From contig NZ_CP041687.1 in the NCBI RefSeq assembly GCF_007362475.1, positions 2,666,001-2,730,000 of the forward strand: a stretch of DNA of 64,000 nucleotides, read 5' to 3'. This DNA is from Chryseobacterium sp. SNU WT5 (GTDB lineage: Bacteria; Bacteroidota; Bacteroidia; Flavobacteriales; Weeksellaceae). Below the pieces are notes generated by a model. It ran no database searches. It was given only the letters and a program-made list of their open reading frames with translations, and was not told the origin of the DNA. Made by a program: the position numbers and the translations under genes. Below, piece by piece: positions 6,751-12,661 of the stretch (within the stretch, counting starts at the first letter, position 1; each line of letters starts with the position of its first letter).

Positions 6751-9700
6751 ATGAAAAAAAGAATCTTCGTAGAAAAAAAAGGAATTTTCGATGTTGAAAG
6801 TCCTCAAGTTTTTAATGAAATAAAAAATATCGTTCCGACGATTAAAGATGTCAAAGTCTATAATATCTATGATGTTTTCGGGGTTAATGATAATGAGTTT
6901 TCAAAAGTCATCAACAATACTTTTGTAGATCCAGTGACCGATATTCTTCATGAAGATAATCCGGCAAAAGGTATTCATTTTGCGACCGAATTTTTACCAG
7001 GACAATATGATCAGCGAGCAGATTCTGCACAACAATGTATTGTCTTGTTGACTGGAAATGAGAACGGTAAAGTAAGAAGTGGAAAACTGATCGAATTATT
7101 TGGAGTTTCTGAAAGCGAAGTCGAAGCTATTAAAAATCATTTGATTAATAAAGTGGAATCCCAAGTGAAGGATTTATCCAAGTTCGAGATTCCAGCTGAA
7201 GAAACACCAGATCCAGTTTTAGTTCATAAAGGTTTCAATGAGTTTTCTGCGGAAGAATTAAAAGCATTTTATGACGATCATGGTTTTGCTTTAGATATTG
7301 ATGATTTAGAATTTATTCAAAATTACTTTAAAACGGAAAATAGAAATCCAACTGAAACCGAGCTTAAGGTTTTAGATACGTACTGGAGCGACCATTGCCG
7401 ACATACCACTTTCGAAACTGAACTGACAGATATTCAGTTTAATGATGCTTTTAAATCGACTCTACAAACGATTTTTAATGATTATCTAGAAAAGAGAAAG
7501 TTTTTAGGCAGAGAACTGAAACCGATTTCTCTAATGGATTTAGCTACGGTTTGTGCAAGATATTTCCACAAGACCGGTAAATTGGAAAACCTTGTTGTTT
7601 CCGATGAAATCAATGCTTGTACGATTGAGATCGAAGCAGAATTCGATGGTAAGAAAGAACCTTGGTATTTATTATTTAAAAATGAAACCCATAATCACCC
7701 AACAGAAATTGAACCTTTTGGTGGTGCGTCAACTTGTTTAGGTGGCGCAATTCGTGATCCTTTGTCTGGACGTGCATTTGTATATCAAGCGATGCGTTTG
7801 TCAGGAGCAGCAAATGTTTTAGAACCAATTTCTGAAACGTTAGCTGGGAAACTTCCACAAAGAACAATTACAAAACAAGCTGCAAATGGTTATTCTTCTT
7901 ATGGAAATCAAATTGGTTTAGCCACAACTTCAGTCAATGAAATTTACCACGATGGGTACAAAGCAAAACGAATGGAAGTTGGTTTTGTCGTTGGTGCCGT
8001 GAAAAAAGATTGGGTTAAAAGAGAGCAACCACAAAATGGTGATCTTGTTATTTTATTAGGTGGCGCAACTGGAAGAGACGGAGTTGGTGGAGCAAGTGGA
8101 AGTTCTAAAGTTCAGGACGAAACCTCAATTCATACTTTGTCAACCGAGGTTCAGAAAGGAAATGCAGTTGAAGAACGTAAAATTCAAAGACTCTTTAGAA
8201 ATCCTGAAGTAACGACCTTAATTAAAAAATCAAATGATTTTGGAGCGGGTGGAGTGTCAGTTGCGATTGGCGAAATTGCTGATTCACTGGAGATTAACCT
8301 CGATATATTACCTTTAAAATATGAAGGTTTAAATGGAACTGAATTGGCGATTTCTGAATCGCAGGAAAGGATGGCGGTTGTTATTGAAGCGAAAGACAAA
8401 GAAAAGTTCATCAGATTCTGTGAAAAAGAAAATATAAAAGCGGTAGAAGTTGCCAAAGTAACCGATTCCGGTAGAATGCAAATGTTTTGGCAGGGAAATA
8501 AAATCGTTGATTTAAGCCGGGAATTTTTAGATACCAATGGTTGTGCAAAAACCCAGCATGCTGAAGTTTCACACTTGCAACCAGTTGAAAATCAGAATAT
8601 AAAGTTTAGTGAAGAGAATTTCTTCAATATACTTTCCAGTAAAAATGTGGCTTCCCAAAAAGGATTGGCTGAAATGTTTGATGCTTCTGTTGGCGGAACG
8701 TCTGTTGCAATGCCGTTTGGAGGAAAACATCAGTTGACCGAAATGGAAGGAAGTGTGCAAACGCTGCCGATTTTAAACGCTAAAAACATCGAAACAGTGT
8801 CTTTGGCAAGTTGGGGATTTGATGCCGATATATCGTCGCAGAACTCTTTAGTTGGTGCAGCGAATGCCGTGGTTGAAAGTGTTGCCAAGATTGTTGCGAT
8901 GGGTGGAGATTACAAAAACATTCGTTTGAGTTTCCAGGAGTATTTTGAGAAGCTAGGAAATCAACCTGAGAAGTGGGGGAAACCTTTAGCTTCCTTACTT
9001 GGAGCGTATGATGCGCAAATGAATTTCGAACTGGCTGCAATTGGAGGTAAAGATTCAATGAGTGGAAGTTTCCAGGATATTCACGTTCCACCGACGTTGA
9101 TTTCATTTGCTTGTGCGAATGGAGAAAAGAAAAATATCATCTCACCCGAGTTTAAAAAAGCAGGAAATAAATTATACTTGTTCAACCATATTTCGCAAGA
9201 AAATGGAATGCCGAATTATCAAGATCTCAAACAGATTTTCGATTATCTTTTTGAAAATATTAAGTCGAAAAAGATTGTTTCGGTGAAGACGATCAAAGAG
9301 GGTGGAGTTGCAGTTGCTCTAGCAAAAATGAGTTTTGGTAATCACCTTGGAGCAGAAATTAAGTTAGATGAACATTTACTTTTAACCAAGAATATTGGGA
9401 GTTTAATTATAGAAAGTTCAGAGGATTTAGAAAATGATTTACTTCAAGTTATTGGTGAGGTTAATAATTCTAATATTTTGAAAATGAGTTGTTTTGAATG
9501 CAGTATTGAAAAATTACTTGAAGTGTGGGGAGGAACTTTTGAAGAGCTTTTTCCAACGAAAGAAAATTCGAAAATGGTTGTTGAAATTGATTCAAAATTG
9601 AATTCTACTCAACCGAGAACGATTCATATCAATAAACATCAATTAGCAAAACCGAAAGTTTTTGCACCGATCTTTCCGGGAACCAATTGTGAATATGAAA

Positions 9701-10440
9701 CGCAAAATGCCTTTAGAAAAGAAGGTGCTGAAGTTTCAGGATTGCCATTAATTAATCTCAATCATCAATTGTTAAATGAAAGTATAGATGCCTGGATTTC
9801 GGAAATTAATCAGTCTCAGATTTTAGTTTTATCGGGTGGTTTTTCCGCCGGAGATGAGCCAGATGGTTCGGCAAAATTTATTGTCAATGTTTTGAAAAAC
9901 GAAAAGATGAAAAATGCGGTTCATCAATTATTGGAACGTGATGGAATGGTTCTCGGAATTTGTAATGGTTTCCAGGCCTTAGTAAAATCTGGATTATTGC
10001 CTTATGGTGAGATTCGGGATTTAAATGCAGATTCACCGACTTTAGCGCATAATGCAATTGGTCGTCATATTTCTCAAATGGTTGATGTGAAAGTGATCAA
10101 TGATGATTCTCCTTGGTTAAAAGGAATGAAAGACCAAGTTTATACCATTCCAATTTCACATGGTGAAGGTCGATTTATGGCGTCAGAAAAGGTGATTCAG
10201 GAATTGTACGAGAATGGTCAGATTGCAACTCAATACATTGATCACGACGGAAACATCGCACACGGAATGCCGTTTAACCCAAATAACTCCTTATTCGGGA
10301 TTGAAGGTTTAACTTCAAAATCAGGGAAAATATTTGGTAGAATGGGACATCCAGAGCGTTATGCAGAAGGGTTAATGAAGAATATTCCAACGGCAAATTA
10401 TCATAACATCTTTAAAAACGGAGTTGAGTATTTTAAATAA
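6751..10440 (+). CDS. purL: phosphoribosylformylglycinamidine synthase (large, fused type)
   Basis: A 1229-residue FGAM synthase of the long single-chain type found in proteobacteria and Bacteroidetes, so no separate purQ/purS is needed. It makes FGAM from FGAR, glutamine and ATP. An N-terminal PurS-like region (about 1-170) is followed by two halves of the synthetase domain; FKNETHNHPTEIEPFGGA around residue 310 is the conserved ATP-site segment and GGKDSMSG around 770 lies in the second half. A class I glutaminase domain begins near APIFPGTNCEYET (about 975), with the nucleophile Cys1071 in LGICNGFQ and the conserved GHPERYAEG near the end. It shows no defects. Confidence 0.97.
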   Translation: MKKRIFVEKKGIFDVESPQVFNEIKNIVPTIKDVKVYNIYDVFGVNDNEFSKVINNTFVDPVTDILHEDNPAKGIHFATEFLPGQYDQRADSAQQCIVLLTGNENGKVRSGKLIELFGVSESEVEAIKNHLINKVESQVKDLSKFEIPAEETPDPVLVHKGFNEFSAEELKAFYDDHGFALDIDDLEFIQNYFKTENRNPTETELKVLDTYWSDHCRHTTFETELTDIQFNDAFKSTLQTIFNDYLEKRKFLGRELKPISLMDLATVCARYFHKTGKLENLVVSDEINACTIEIEAEFDGKKEPWYLLFKNETHNHPTEIEPFGGASTCLGGAIRDPLSGRAFVYQAMRLSGAANVLEPISETLAGKLPQRTITKQAANGYSSYGNQIGLATTSVNEIYHDGYKAKRMEVGFVVGAVKKDWVKREQPQNGDLVILLGGATGRDGVGGASGSSKVQDETSIHTLSTEVQKGNAVEERKIQRLFRNPEVTTLIKKSNDFGAGGVSVAIGEIADSLEINLDILPLKYEGLNGTELAISESQERMAVVIEAKDKEKFIRFCEKENIKAVEVAKVTDSGRMQMFWQGNKIVDLSREFLDTNGCAKTQHAEVSHLQPVENQNIKFSEENFFNILSSKNVASQKGLAEMFDASVGGTSVAMPFGGKHQLTEMEGSVQTLPILNAKNIETVSLASWGFDADISSQNSLVGAANAVVESVAKIVAMGGDYKNIRLSFQEYFEKLGNQPEKWGKPLASLLGAYDAQMNFELAAIGGKDSMSGSFQDIHVPPTLISFACANGEKKNIISPEFKKAGNKLYLFNHISQENGMPNYQDLKQIFDYLFENIKSKKIVSVKTIKEGGVAVALAKMSFGNHLGAEIKLDEHLLLTKNIGSLIIESSEDLENDLLQVIGEVNNSNILKMSCFECSIEKLLEVWGGTFEELFPTKENSKMVVEIDSKLNSTQPRTIHINKHQLAKPKVFAPIFPGTNCEYETQNAFRKEGAEVSGLPLINLNHQLLNESIDAWISEINQSQILVLSGGFSAGDEPDGSAKFIVNVLKNEKMKNAVHQLLERDGMVLGICNGFQALVKSGLLPYGEIRDLNADSPTLAHNAIGRHISQMVDVKVINDDSPWLKGMKDQVYTIPISHGEGRFMASEKVIQELYENGQIATQYIDHDGNIAHGMPFNPNNSLFGIEGLTSKSGKIFGRMGHPERYAEGLMKNIPTANYHNIFKNGVEYFK

Positions 10441-10471
10441 TATCAACATTTATTAGGTAAAGAGAACTAAA

Positions 10472-10491
10472 TATAAGTTAATTTACTTATA
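10472..10491. promoter_or_regulatory. operator-like palindrome, site A
   Basis: TATAAG-N8-CTTATA. Extended by one base on each side, the arms ATATAAGT / ACTTATAT pair over 8 bp. It is the first of four sites with the same geometry in front of the SatD-family gene. Confidence 0.6.
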
Positions 10492-10500
10492 TGTAACGAT

Positions 10501-10520
10501 TATTAGTTAATTAGCTTATA
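10501..10520. promoter_or_regulatory. operator-like palindrome, site B
   Basis: TATTAG-N8-CTTATA, one mismatch from a perfect inverted repeat. Its centre is 29 bp from that of site A, with a 9-bp gap between the two sites. Confidence 0.55.
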
Positions 10521-10547
10521 TTCTAAAATAAAATTTAAAAATTAAAA

Positions 10548-10567
10548 TATTAGGTATTTGCCTTATA
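10548..10567. promoter_or_regulatory. operator-like palindrome, site C
   Basis: TATTAG-N8-CTTATA, with the right half identical to the other sites. The inner bases extend pairing (GG...CC). Its centre is 47 bp from site B. Confidence 0.55.
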
Positions 10568-10576
10568 TTATCGATT

Positions 10577-10596
10577 TATAAGGATTATTGCTTATA
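10577..10596. promoter_or_regulatory. operator-like palindrome, site D
   Basis: TATAAG-N8-CTTATA with perfect arms, centred 29 bp from site C (again a 9-bp gap). It ends 8 bases before the start codon and overlaps the TATATTTG box, so a bound protein would block the promoter. Confidence 0.6.
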
Positions 10597-10600
10597 TTTG
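10593..10600 (+). promoter_or_regulatory. -7 box of the SatD/DUF3307 operon
   Basis: TATATTTG is an exact match to TAnnTTTG and lies only 4 bases before the ATG at 10605. Transcription starting the usual few bases downstream would give a leaderless mRNA. No TTG lies at the normal distance upstream, as may be expected of a regulated promoter. Confidence 0.5.
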
Positions 10601-10604
10601 TAAC

Positions 10605-11210
10605 ATGATTGCGATTATCACTGGAGATATCATTAATTCTCAAAAATCAGATGCTGAACTATGGCTTCCAAAATTGAAAAATTTATTGGGTTCATGGTCT
10701 GTAACACCAGGAAATTGGGAAGTATACCGAGGAGATGAATTTCAATTAAAGTGTAGTGTTGGTGAAGTATTTCATAAAGCTCTACTTTTAAAATCACTCA
10801 TCAGAACATTTGAAAATTTAGATGTACGTATTGCAATTGGTATCGGTAATGAAGTATTTCTTTCCGAAAAAATAACGGAATCAAATGGTTCTGCTTACGT
10901 AAATTCTGGCCGGCTATTAACAGAGATTACCGCTCAAGGAAAGACGTTAGCCATACAAACGGAAAATGAAAAAGTAAACCGGGATTTGAATATACTTTTC
11001 AAGTGGGCATCTATAGATTTCGATAATTGGACTGCAGCTACCGCAGAAATTATTCATCAGTTATTAGGTAACTCAGAATTAACTCAGGACGAATTAGCGA
11101 AAGAGCTTAATATAAGCCAGTCTTCAGTAAGTCAAAGGCTTAAGAGAGCTAATTTTGATTTATTACAAGAAACCGATCAATATTTCAGAAAGAAAATATC
11201 AGAATTATAA
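10605..11210 (+). CDS. SatD family protein: cyclase-like domain with C-terminal HTH
   Basis: A 201-residue soluble protein of the SatD family, whose biochemical role is unknown. Residues 1-145 begin ITGDIINSQ (Asp8), then have YRGDEFQL (Asp44), VRIAIGIG (74-81) and GSAYVNSGRL (95-104). The order and spacing recall class III nucleotidyl cyclases (two metal-binding Asp, then the VN..AR motif), which is my inference. Residues 160-181 form a helix-turn-helix (ELAKELNISQSSVSQRLKR), so the protein probably binds DNA. Four palindromic sites directly upstream make autoregulation likely. Its stop codon abuts the ATG of the DUF3307 gene, so the two are made together. It sits between purL and purC without an obvious purine link. 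Confidence 0.8.
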   Translation: MIAIITGDIINSQKSDAELWLPKLKNLLGSWSVTPGNWEVYRGDEFQLKCSVGEVFHKALLLKSLIRTFENLDVRIAIGIGNEVFLSEKITESNGSAYVNSGRLLTEITAQGKTLAIQTENEKVNRDLNILFKWASIDFDNWTAATAEIIHQLLGNSELTQDELAKELNISQSSVSQRLKRANFDLLQETDQYFRKKISEL

Positions 11211-11912
11211 ATGATTTTTACTTCACTCATATTAGCACATCTATTAGGAGATTTTATTCTTCAGCCTAATTCTTGGGTCGCTGATAAAGAGAAGAAAAAA
11301 GGAGGTAGCATCTATTTGTACCTTCATGTAGCGCTACATATGGCACTCGTTCTAATATTTTTATGGGATCTTAATCTTTGGTGGATTGCTTTAATTATTG
11401 GTAGTACCCACCTAATAATTGATTGGGCAAAACTTTATTTTCAGAATCCTAAAACCACAAGAACTTGGTTCTTTGTAGATCAGGCTGCACATATTTTGGT
11501 AATTATTGCTTTGTCAATGATTTACTTTCCTTATTTTAAATGGGAGGATTTCTTTAATGCTGATAGTCTGCAATTGATTACTGCAGTCGTTTTCCTTACA
11601 GTTCCCTCTTCAATCCTAATCAAAACGGTGATCTCCTTTTGGACACCAGTTACGGTTGATCACAGCAAATTACAGACAGAATCCCTGGTCAATGCTGGGA
11701 AATACATTGGTATTCTCGAGCGTCTCCTGGTATTTGTTTTCATATTGGTGAACCATTGGGAAGGCGTAGGATTTATGATCGCTGCAAAGTCGGTTTTCAG
11801 ATTTAGTGATCTAGCAGAAGCAAAACAGCGTAAGCTGACTGAATATGTTTTAATAGGAACCTTGCTAAGTTTTGGCATCGCAGTTCTTACAGGTATTTTT
11901 GTAAAAATTTAA
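11211..11912 (+). CDS. DUF3307 domain membrane protein
   Basis: A 233-residue integral membrane protein. It opens with the DUF3307 signature LAHLLGDFILQPNSWVADKEKKKGG: a first membrane helix that carries an Asp and a Gln, then a basic loop. HLIIDWAKLYF (about 65-75) and WFFVDQAAHILVI (about 85-97) contain further conserved polar residues within helices. I count about six to seven hydrophobic segments in all. No function is established for the family. Its ATG follows the stop of the SatD-family gene with no gap, so translation is coupled and the pair looks like one regulator-plus-membrane-protein unit. Confidence 0.82.
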   Translation: MIFTSLILAHLLGDFILQPNSWVADKEKKKGGSIYLYLHVALHMALVLIFLWDLNLWWIALIIGSTHLIIDWAKLYFQNPKTTRTWFFVDQAAHILVIIALSMIYFPYFKWEDFFNADSLQLITAVVFLTVPSSILIKTVISFWTPVTVDHSKLQTESLVNAGKYIGILERLLVFVFILVNHWEGVGFMIAAKSVFRFSDLAEAKQRKLTEYVLIGTLLSFGIAVLTGIFVKI

Positions 11913-11941: not shown

Positions 11942-12661
11942 ATGACAAAAGGAGCAATGCTTTATGAAGGAAAGGCAAAGCAGGTTTTCGAAACCGATAA
12001 TCCAAACGAGGTGATTGTCCGTTTCAAAGATGATGCAACAGCTTTCAACGCACAAAAGAGAGGAAATTTTGACCTCAAAGGTGAAATGAATAACGCCATC
12101 ACCACCTTAATTTTTGAATATTTGAACACCAAAGGAATTCCTACTCACTTCATTCAAAAATTAGATGAAAGAGAGCAATTGGTACAGAAAGTAAGCATCA
12201 TTCCACTGGAAATGGTGGTTCGTAACTATGCAGCAGGAAGCATGGCGCAGAGATTAGGAGTGGAAGAAGGTATAAAGTCACCAGTCACCATTATTGATAT
12301 TTGCTACAAAAGAGATGATCTGGGTGATCCATTAATTAATGATCATCACGCCGTTTTCTTGGGCGCTGCAACCTATGATGAGCTGAAGGAAATGTACAAA
12401 TTGACTTCTGAAATTAATGATATTTTAATTGACCTTTTTGATCGAATGAATATTATTTTGGTAGATTTTAAAATTGAATTAGGTAAAACTGCAGATGGAA
12501 AAATTATTCTAGCTGATGAGATCTCACCAGATACTTGTCGTCTTTGGGATAAAGACACGATGAAGAAACTTGACAAAGATCGCTTTAGAAGAGATTTGGG
12601 CGAAGTGACAGAAGCGTACGTAGAAATTTATGAGCGATTAAAAAAAGTTCTTCAAAAATAA
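11942..12661 (+). CDS. purC: SAICAR synthase
   Basis: A 239-residue phosphoribosylaminoimidazole-succinocarboxamide synthase. It joins CAIR to aspartate with ATP, giving SAICAR, the substrate of the PurB encoded 7 kb upstream. Family motifs are clear: [11 protein letters not shown] at the N-terminus (ATP-binding loop), [18 protein letters not shown] [15 protein letters not shown] in the middle, and [15 protein letters not shown] near residue 190. The length fits the short bacterial form. purF follows 18 bases downstream of the stop, so the two are probably co-transcribed. Confidence 0.97.

Follow-up and report, generated by a model that had tools for sequence, protein, structure and literature searches.

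What do four copies of one palindrome do in front of a two-gene operon, and which protein reads them? The question is raised by a stretch of 64,000 nucleotides from Chryseobacterium sp. SNU WT5 (NZ_CP041687.1, positions 2,666,001 to 2,730,000; hereafter the window), in which satD is preceded by regularly placed sites and followed by a gene for a membrane protein of the DUF3307 type. We found no described molecular function for the SatD/DUF3307 pair. The open-access full texts searched (most subscription papers lying outside them, and longer results being covered among the matches listed) gave no description of SatD DNA binding, of an operator or of a palm fold, and for Fusobacterium nucleatum the available part of one paper only names a SatD-family protein (PMC10326533). 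Our results indicate that the spacing of such sites is kept throughout the SatD family and that their letters change with the SatD protein. We consider it probable that SatD dimers, lined up as a chain, cooperatively repress their own leaderless operon; a nucleotide signal may release them.

Four putative operator sites and a promoter box upstream of satD

Four sites of the form TATWAG-N8-CTTATA lie within 125 bases, and their geometry is the one given by the original prediction. Sites A (TATAAG-N8-CTTATA, 10472..10491) and B (TATTAG-N8-CTTATA, 10501..10520) are exact matches to the motif and stand 29 bp apart; site C (10548..10567) follows 47 bp from B, and site D (10577..10596) lies 29 bp from C. 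None of the four is assigned to a strand, and all of the right halves (4 of 4) read CTTATA. Two 29-bp steps would exceed the gap of 47 bp between B and C by 11 bp, or about one helical turn. Directly before site A, TTATTAGGTAAAGAGAACTAAA at 10450-10471 resembles a degenerate half-site region that is off the 29-bp lattice.

When the genome (3.04 Mb) was scanned, these four sites were the only copies of TATWAG-N8-CTTATA with zero mismatches. With up to one mismatch, and with the exact sites counted, the matches numbered 14 (forward) and 17 (reverse); the reversed pattern gave 104 and 94. The matches away from satD did not form rows of 28 or 29 bp, and a wider regulon was therefore rejected. The original prediction had also taken A/B and C/D to be a duplicated two-site module, and this part did not stand: at an offset of 76 bp the two segments are identical at 22 of 24 half-site bases, but outside the half-sites at only 13 of 32, where composition alone leads one to expect 36%. 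A recent duplication was thus rejected. Within the genus, the looser motif TAT[AT]AG-N8-CT[AT]ATA, with one change allowed, is present at -57 from the ATG, the position of site C, in 28 of the 38 rows, the window included, and at -28, the position of site D, likewise in 28 of 38.

The only -7 box, TATATTTG, is on the forward strand at 10593..10600. As had been claimed, it overlaps site D, with which its first 4 bases are common, and 4 bases separate its end from the ATG (10605). Counted from the ATG, the box thus occupies exactly -12 to -5. In Flavobacterium psychrophilum the sigma-A -7 box has this position with respect to the transcription start, according to the accessible part of PMC9723704. 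On this geometry the satD transcript is predicted to be leaderless, as the original prediction had it, and to start at the A of the ATG. The same source puts leaderless messages at 5.5% of the mRNAs examined in F. psychrophilum, and the part available of PMC7366714 gives the share of leaders shorter than 10 nt in B. thetaiotaomicron as about 3.7%. Among the 65 arrays of the family that have a TAnnTTTG box in the last 90 bp, the box ends exactly 4 nt before the ATG in 38.

The spacing is conserved across the SatD family

We collected 174 SatD-family loci, of which 154 were left after removal of exact duplicates, and these yielded 121 non-redundant promoters. The filter required an ungapped identity of <70% over 150 bp and misses relatives shifted by indels, so that 121 is an upper bound on the number of independent cases. 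Subfamilies were labelled TGD, LMGD and LIGD, names coined here from an N-terminal motif, and start codons were set automatically as the ATG nearest the domain start. The search used no motif: in the 200 bp before each start it looked for pairs of like palindromes with 6-base halves, a gap of 3-14 and a spacing of 22-39.

The best pair was spaced by 28 or 29 bp in 112 of the 121 promoters, all from Bacteroidota. Among 2420 dinucleotide shuffles this was so in 12.6%, and among 203 regions upstream of other genes from the same loci in 25 (12.3%). By subfamily the counts were 72/78, 17/19, 17/17 and 6/7. A pair score of at least 33 was reached by 62% of the SatD promoters, but by 0.5% of the shuffles and 0.5% of the control promoters; single shuffles at times scored 30-33. 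When promoters were matched with themselves, peaks appeared at lags of 28 and 29 and next at 56 and 58, and among loci held out until then the spacing was 28 or 29 bp in 30 of 31. A chain of sites was also fitted to each promoter; this fit imposes the 28/29 spacing, so its gap counts carry no evidence, and in the window row it took only sites A and B. The arrays extend up to about 200 bp upstream.

The array also accompanies SatD on plasmids. Database searches gave 14 plasmid hits, of which 11 were fetched (H7-H9 being left out) and 10 loci were scored, H3, nearly identical to H1, separately. The spacing was 28 or 29 bp in 8 of these 10 loci from proteobacteria, Bacteroidota and haloarchaea, and for each of the eight 0 of 200 shuffles were as good. 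The copies with an array come from Agrobacterium, Sphingomonas parapaucimobilis, Vibrio, Pseudoalteromonas, Segatella and, among archaea, Haloplanus, Halorientalis and Natronosalvus, those of Haloplanus and Halorientalis being near relatives of each other in this set. Before the haloarchaeal pairs (L276, L277, L280) the arrays consist of TTCGCC or ACAACC at 29 bp; a regulator encoded there would have to operate with the archaeal transcription machinery. The four sites of the window are thus one instance of a family-wide feature in which the spacing, not the letters, is conserved. The spacing class, 28 or 29, covaries best with the residues L105/T106 in the palm domain of SatD, which may lie at a contact between dimers; the spacing is bound to clades on the tree, and this is a lead only.

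Half-site letters change with the recognition helix

Within one subfamily the half-sites read TATAAG, TATTAC, TATTCC, TATCGG, TATCTG, TATATG or TATCGT, and other subfamilies have 19-bp palindromes such as GTTTCA-N7-TGAAAC and TTTAAC-N7-GTTAAA. To find the SatD residues that vary with these letters, we used 43 proteins of <75% identity (46 less three rows outside the TGD subfamily). Of the 187 usable columns, residue 177 ranked first for mutual information with half-site bases 4-6 (z 10.0), and its partial correlation with the half-site was 0.56 after overall identity had been removed, the runner-up column reaching 0.32. In the structure model this residue lies in the predicted recognition helix (residues 172-181, 11118..11147, forward strand; the Q177 codon is 11133-11135).

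Shared descent was addressed with a tree of the N-terminal domain only, for 67 of 107 proteins. Among tree-disjoint pairs, the half-sites differed in 6 of 7 pairs with different residues at 177 as against 3 of 23 with the same residue (Fisher p 9e-4). The relatives L156 and L150, 73% identical in the N-terminal domain, combine E with TATCTG and Q with TATTAG, respectively, and two distinct clades, those of L075 and L084, each combine K177 with TATTCC. When the resulting rule was applied to held-out proteins, whose half-sites were fitted with a small bonus for halves starting with TAT, it was correct in 14 of the 15 cases that it covered above 47% identity. Because the half-site letters track residue 177, in tree-disjoint pairs as well, there is a strong, if indirect, argument that SatD very probably binds its own array. 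The original prediction had SatD bind and regulate itself through its own helix-turn-helix (HTH); the search of orthologue promoters bears it out to this extent, since the motif is present upstream of orthologues and altered motifs go with changes in the recognition helix.

SatD joins a predicted palm-fold domain to a helix-turn-helix

The satD gene (10605..11210, forward strand) encodes 201 amino acids and matches Pfam PF16264 with 44.8 bits against a cut-off of 29, residues 2-186 covering profile positions 2-199 of 211. Its structure model (predicted local distance difference test, pLDDT, 91.6; predicted template modelling score, pTM, 0.89) consists of a beta-alpha-beta-beta-alpha-beta-alpha-beta domain and then the HTH. 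In VIA-align the best 50 rows are palm or nucleotidyl-cyclase folds, with scores of 9.6 for Cmr2/Cas10, 9.6 for GTP cyclohydrolase III (107 residues, 2.8 A), 9.1 for Rv1625c and 8.9 for GGDEF. Nearly all of the best 50 of 759 Foldseek rows belong to the same superfamily, one being a Y-family DNA polymerase; only one of the 759 matches has E <=0.001. A profile of the domain from 153 proteins matched that of 26 class III cyclases with P 1.9e-6, where reversed profiles gave 0.16-0.2 and the partner family 0.36, the cyclases having been chosen by the class III motif pattern, which could favour metal motifs. With a partly mis-framed cyclase alignment, hhalign gave only P 0.002.

By structure prediction and homology, then, SatD is a palm or nucleotidyl-cyclase-fold domain with two invariant aspartates (residues 1-140, 10605..11024, forward strand) joined to a C-terminal HTH. 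Every one of the 153 proteins, whatever its subfamily, has D8, S12 and D44, and 152 have G43 and G95; no column of the HTH exceeds 85% conservation. The pair that would stabilize the transition state in a cyclase is not conserved: in the TGD subfamily N100 is found in 57 and R103 in 74 of 109 proteins, while for the other two subfamilies the counts of R103 are 1 of 19 and 3 of 17, the local alignment being uncertain. Because the cyclase arginine is not conserved, we describe SatD as a palm-domain protein rather than as a cyclase.

The partner gene, its locus and its distribution

The partner gene (11211..11912, forward strand) starts directly after the satD stop codon. Its product, a membrane protein, matches the DUF3307 family PF11750 with 98 bits, and no other Pfam family rose above its cut-off. 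A DUF3307-type membrane gene lies downstream in 146 of 154 SatD rows, mostly overlapping or abutting the satD stop. What is conserved in these partners is a C-terminal membrane module (residues 159-224, 11685..11882, forward strand) outside the Pfam domain, kept in all SatD subfamilies: E170, K193 and G216 are each present in 146 of 146 and R197 in 145 of 146. Its pattern, IG.LER ... AAKS..RF ... EY.LIGT..S, is not covered by Pfam DUF3307, and the 16 LMGD-subfamily partners, of about 111 amino acids, contain little else; from these alignments the module may be an undescribed domain. The plasmid partners, archaeal ones included, matched a profile of the partner proteins in 9 of 9 cases tested (E 1.6e-14 or better), and the genes downstream of satD in L126, L139, L275, L278 and L280 also carry the module.

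Upstream of the array lies a gene that we take to be purL (6751-10440), and downstream of the operon one that we take to be purC (11942-12661). satD was found in 36 of 36 genomes of the genus searched, the window's own included, and in 4 of the other 24 relatives. Wider samples show a patchy distribution, with satD in 59 of 296 genomes for the order and in 77 of 395 for the phylum. Some genomes have two SatD genes, as in L264 and L265 of genome G535, and eight genomes of the phylum sample had two matches. Neither SatD nor DUF3307 had a match in the phage records searched, and relatives in viral contigs amounted to none for A1 and one weak partial match for A2. Against PADLOC 2.0.0 the SatD of the window gave only weak matches (best E 0.0038) and the partner none. 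On a Sphingomonas insulae plasmid (L202, 944-8434) the pair has neighbours annotated as a TIR protein, a Pycsar cyclase and a Pycsar effector, the last of which matches PycTM, and an ImmA/IrrE gene lies nearby too. This neighbourhood is a possible defence island, a single case in which the SatD copy has no array.

Proposed mechanism and alternative explanations

We propose that the C-terminal HTH of SatD would bind the palindromic half-sites as a dimer and that the N-terminal palm domain would provide a second contact, between neighbouring dimers. SatD would then assemble along the DNA in fixed steps of 28 or 29 bp and shut the -7 box at the last site, repressing a leaderless transcript that presumably carries both satD and its back-to-back membrane partner. 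The palm domain, in which two metal-type aspartates are invariant, is a probable binder (or former producer) of a nucleotide, and this nucleotide would control assembly; the operon would stay off until the nucleotide signal changes, and the partner would then act at the membrane. In 28-bp arrays of N8 palindromes there is a half-site each 14 bp, and by simple arithmetic three steps make 84 bp, or eight turns at 10.5. This rhythm of 14 bp suggests two alternating contacts, HTH to HTH on a palindrome and palm to palm between palindromes. The core of the original prediction is retained here; it lacked the palm-fold domain, the constant period of 28 or 29 bp and the spread over two domains of life.

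Several results weigh against this interpretation. First, sequence matches of the N-terminal domain in the PDB are weak (best 1ybt, E 0.011; Ma1120, 0.13-0.23; 3mr7, 0.55). Second, the chain fit gave a single site in 10 of 121 promoters, and among the 10 plasmid loci scored no array was found in the Arthrobacter and Sphingomonas insulae copies. Third, 46 of 111 arrays lack a TAnnTTTG box in their last 90 bp, so that the leaderless layout is not family-wide. In the 65 arrays that have the box, it overlaps a fitted site 53 times, which is close to the 76% expected from array coverage (the window is scored as having no overlap, the fit having taken only A and B, although site D overlaps the box), and box overlap was rejected as statistical evidence of repression. 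Fourth, for half-site base 5 alone Q177 ranks third, behind L186 and E45. Of 15 held-out proteins below 47% identity, 11 had a residue named by the rule; 4 of them, with K177, were set aside for half-sites that do not begin like TAT, though they end in C, and the rule was correct in 1 of the 7 scored. The residue-177 rule was therefore rejected as a universal code, and recognition appears to depend on the context of the helix.

Among the alternatives, the one that survives best makes the palm domain a dead, structural module for dimerisation, without any part in nucleotide binding or synthesis, and SatD an ordinary constitutive autorepressor that holds the partner at a set level. The unconserved arginine of class III cyclases speaks for it (R103 as counted above), whereas the metal-type aspartates D8 and D44 are invariant in a protein whose HTH has no column passing 85%, and we regard it as possible but doubtful. 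It is less probable still that SatD binds the array but activates, or that it does both, the upstream sites recruiting polymerase and the last site blocking it. The arrays reach further upstream than the blocking of one box would need, and in some promoters the last site of the fit lies off the -7 box. In the clade of the window, however, the last site shares bases with a box that ends 4 nt from the ATG, a typical blocking position. In addition, satD of Streptococcus pyogenes is reported, in the available part of PMC11323703, to be essential in the tested strains although it occurs in 178 of 249 genomes. By analogy, this would be as expected if loss of a repressor frees a harmful partner, and it fits lost repression better than lost activation.

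That an unlinked regulator binds the array, SatD being merely one of its targets, seems to us very improbable: a regulator inherited together with SatD could in principle give such covariation between genomes, but the best covarying column lies in SatD's own recognition helix, residue and half-site change together between L156 and L150, exact sites occur nowhere else in the genome, and arrays accompany plasmid copies of SatD in other phyla. Weakest of all, and hardly credible, is the view that the repeats are debris of tandem duplication or an AT-rich periodicity, for although the region is AT-rich and single shuffles sometimes reach scores of 30-33, the bases outside the half-sites of the window are unlike while the half-sites are alike, and arrays whose half-sites follow the protein are present even in haloarchaeal plasmids.

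Comparison with known systems

Regulators of the Lrp/AsnC family (feast/famine regulatory proteins, FFRP) assemble into oligomers that wrap DNA at sites in regular phase. SatD likewise has an HTH, an alpha/beta domain and regularly phased sites. However, the order of domains in Lrp is the reverse of that in SatD, no RAM family was among the best 25 of the 30 Pfam rows of SatD, and the AsnC HTH reached 21.4 bits, below its cut-off of 27. Class III adenylyl cyclases, GGDEF proteins and Cas10 differ from the SatD family in the transition-state arginine: of the features of a class III nucleotidyl cyclase, SatD is predicted to have the cyclase/palm fold and the two metal-type aspartates, but not a conserved Asn/Arg pair.

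Type II toxin-antitoxin operons are small, have two genes and are autorepressed by their antitoxins. The SatD operon resembles them in its two small abutting or overlapping genes, the first coding for a putative autorepressor, and in the essential-where-present behaviour reported for S. pyogenes satD in the accessible text of PMC11323703, which also cites a link of the sat genes of Streptococcus mutans to acid tolerance. The closest analogue is Panoptes, in which, as described in the parts available of PMC12657230 and PMC12657218, a two-gene operon encodes a palm enzyme, OptS/mCpol, that restrains a membrane effector, OptE/2TM-beta. The SatD operon also combines a small palm-fold protein with a membrane protein, and OptS (9mnr) appears in the Foldseek list of SatD at E 0.035. 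SatD differs in its added HTH and operator array, and its partner is PF11750, not 2TM-beta.

Tentatively, a wider picture may be drawn, which we think less likely than not. SatD would be a repressor under nucleotide control that grows along DNA as a helical polymer, palm and HTH contacts alternating and each dimer taking up 28 or 29 bp, and that guards a membrane effector; the module would have spread over Bacteria and Archaea as a regulatory relative of palm/effector defence of the Panoptes type, the letters of the operator drifting while the protein polymer holds the step.

Significance

With these results the SatD/DUF3307 pair gains a concrete role that can be tested: SatD would repress its own operon by binding to it, with recognition code, transcript start and partner module all predicted. 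The SatD arrays are also a natural experiment in the co-evolution of protein and DNA, in which the spacing is fixed and the sequence is free, and through the palm domain a regulator is connected with the enzyme fold that serves immune signalling by cyclic nucleotides. Should the partner do harm once repression is lost, this could explain why satD was scored essential although accessory in S. pyogenes, as reported in the available text of PMC11323703.
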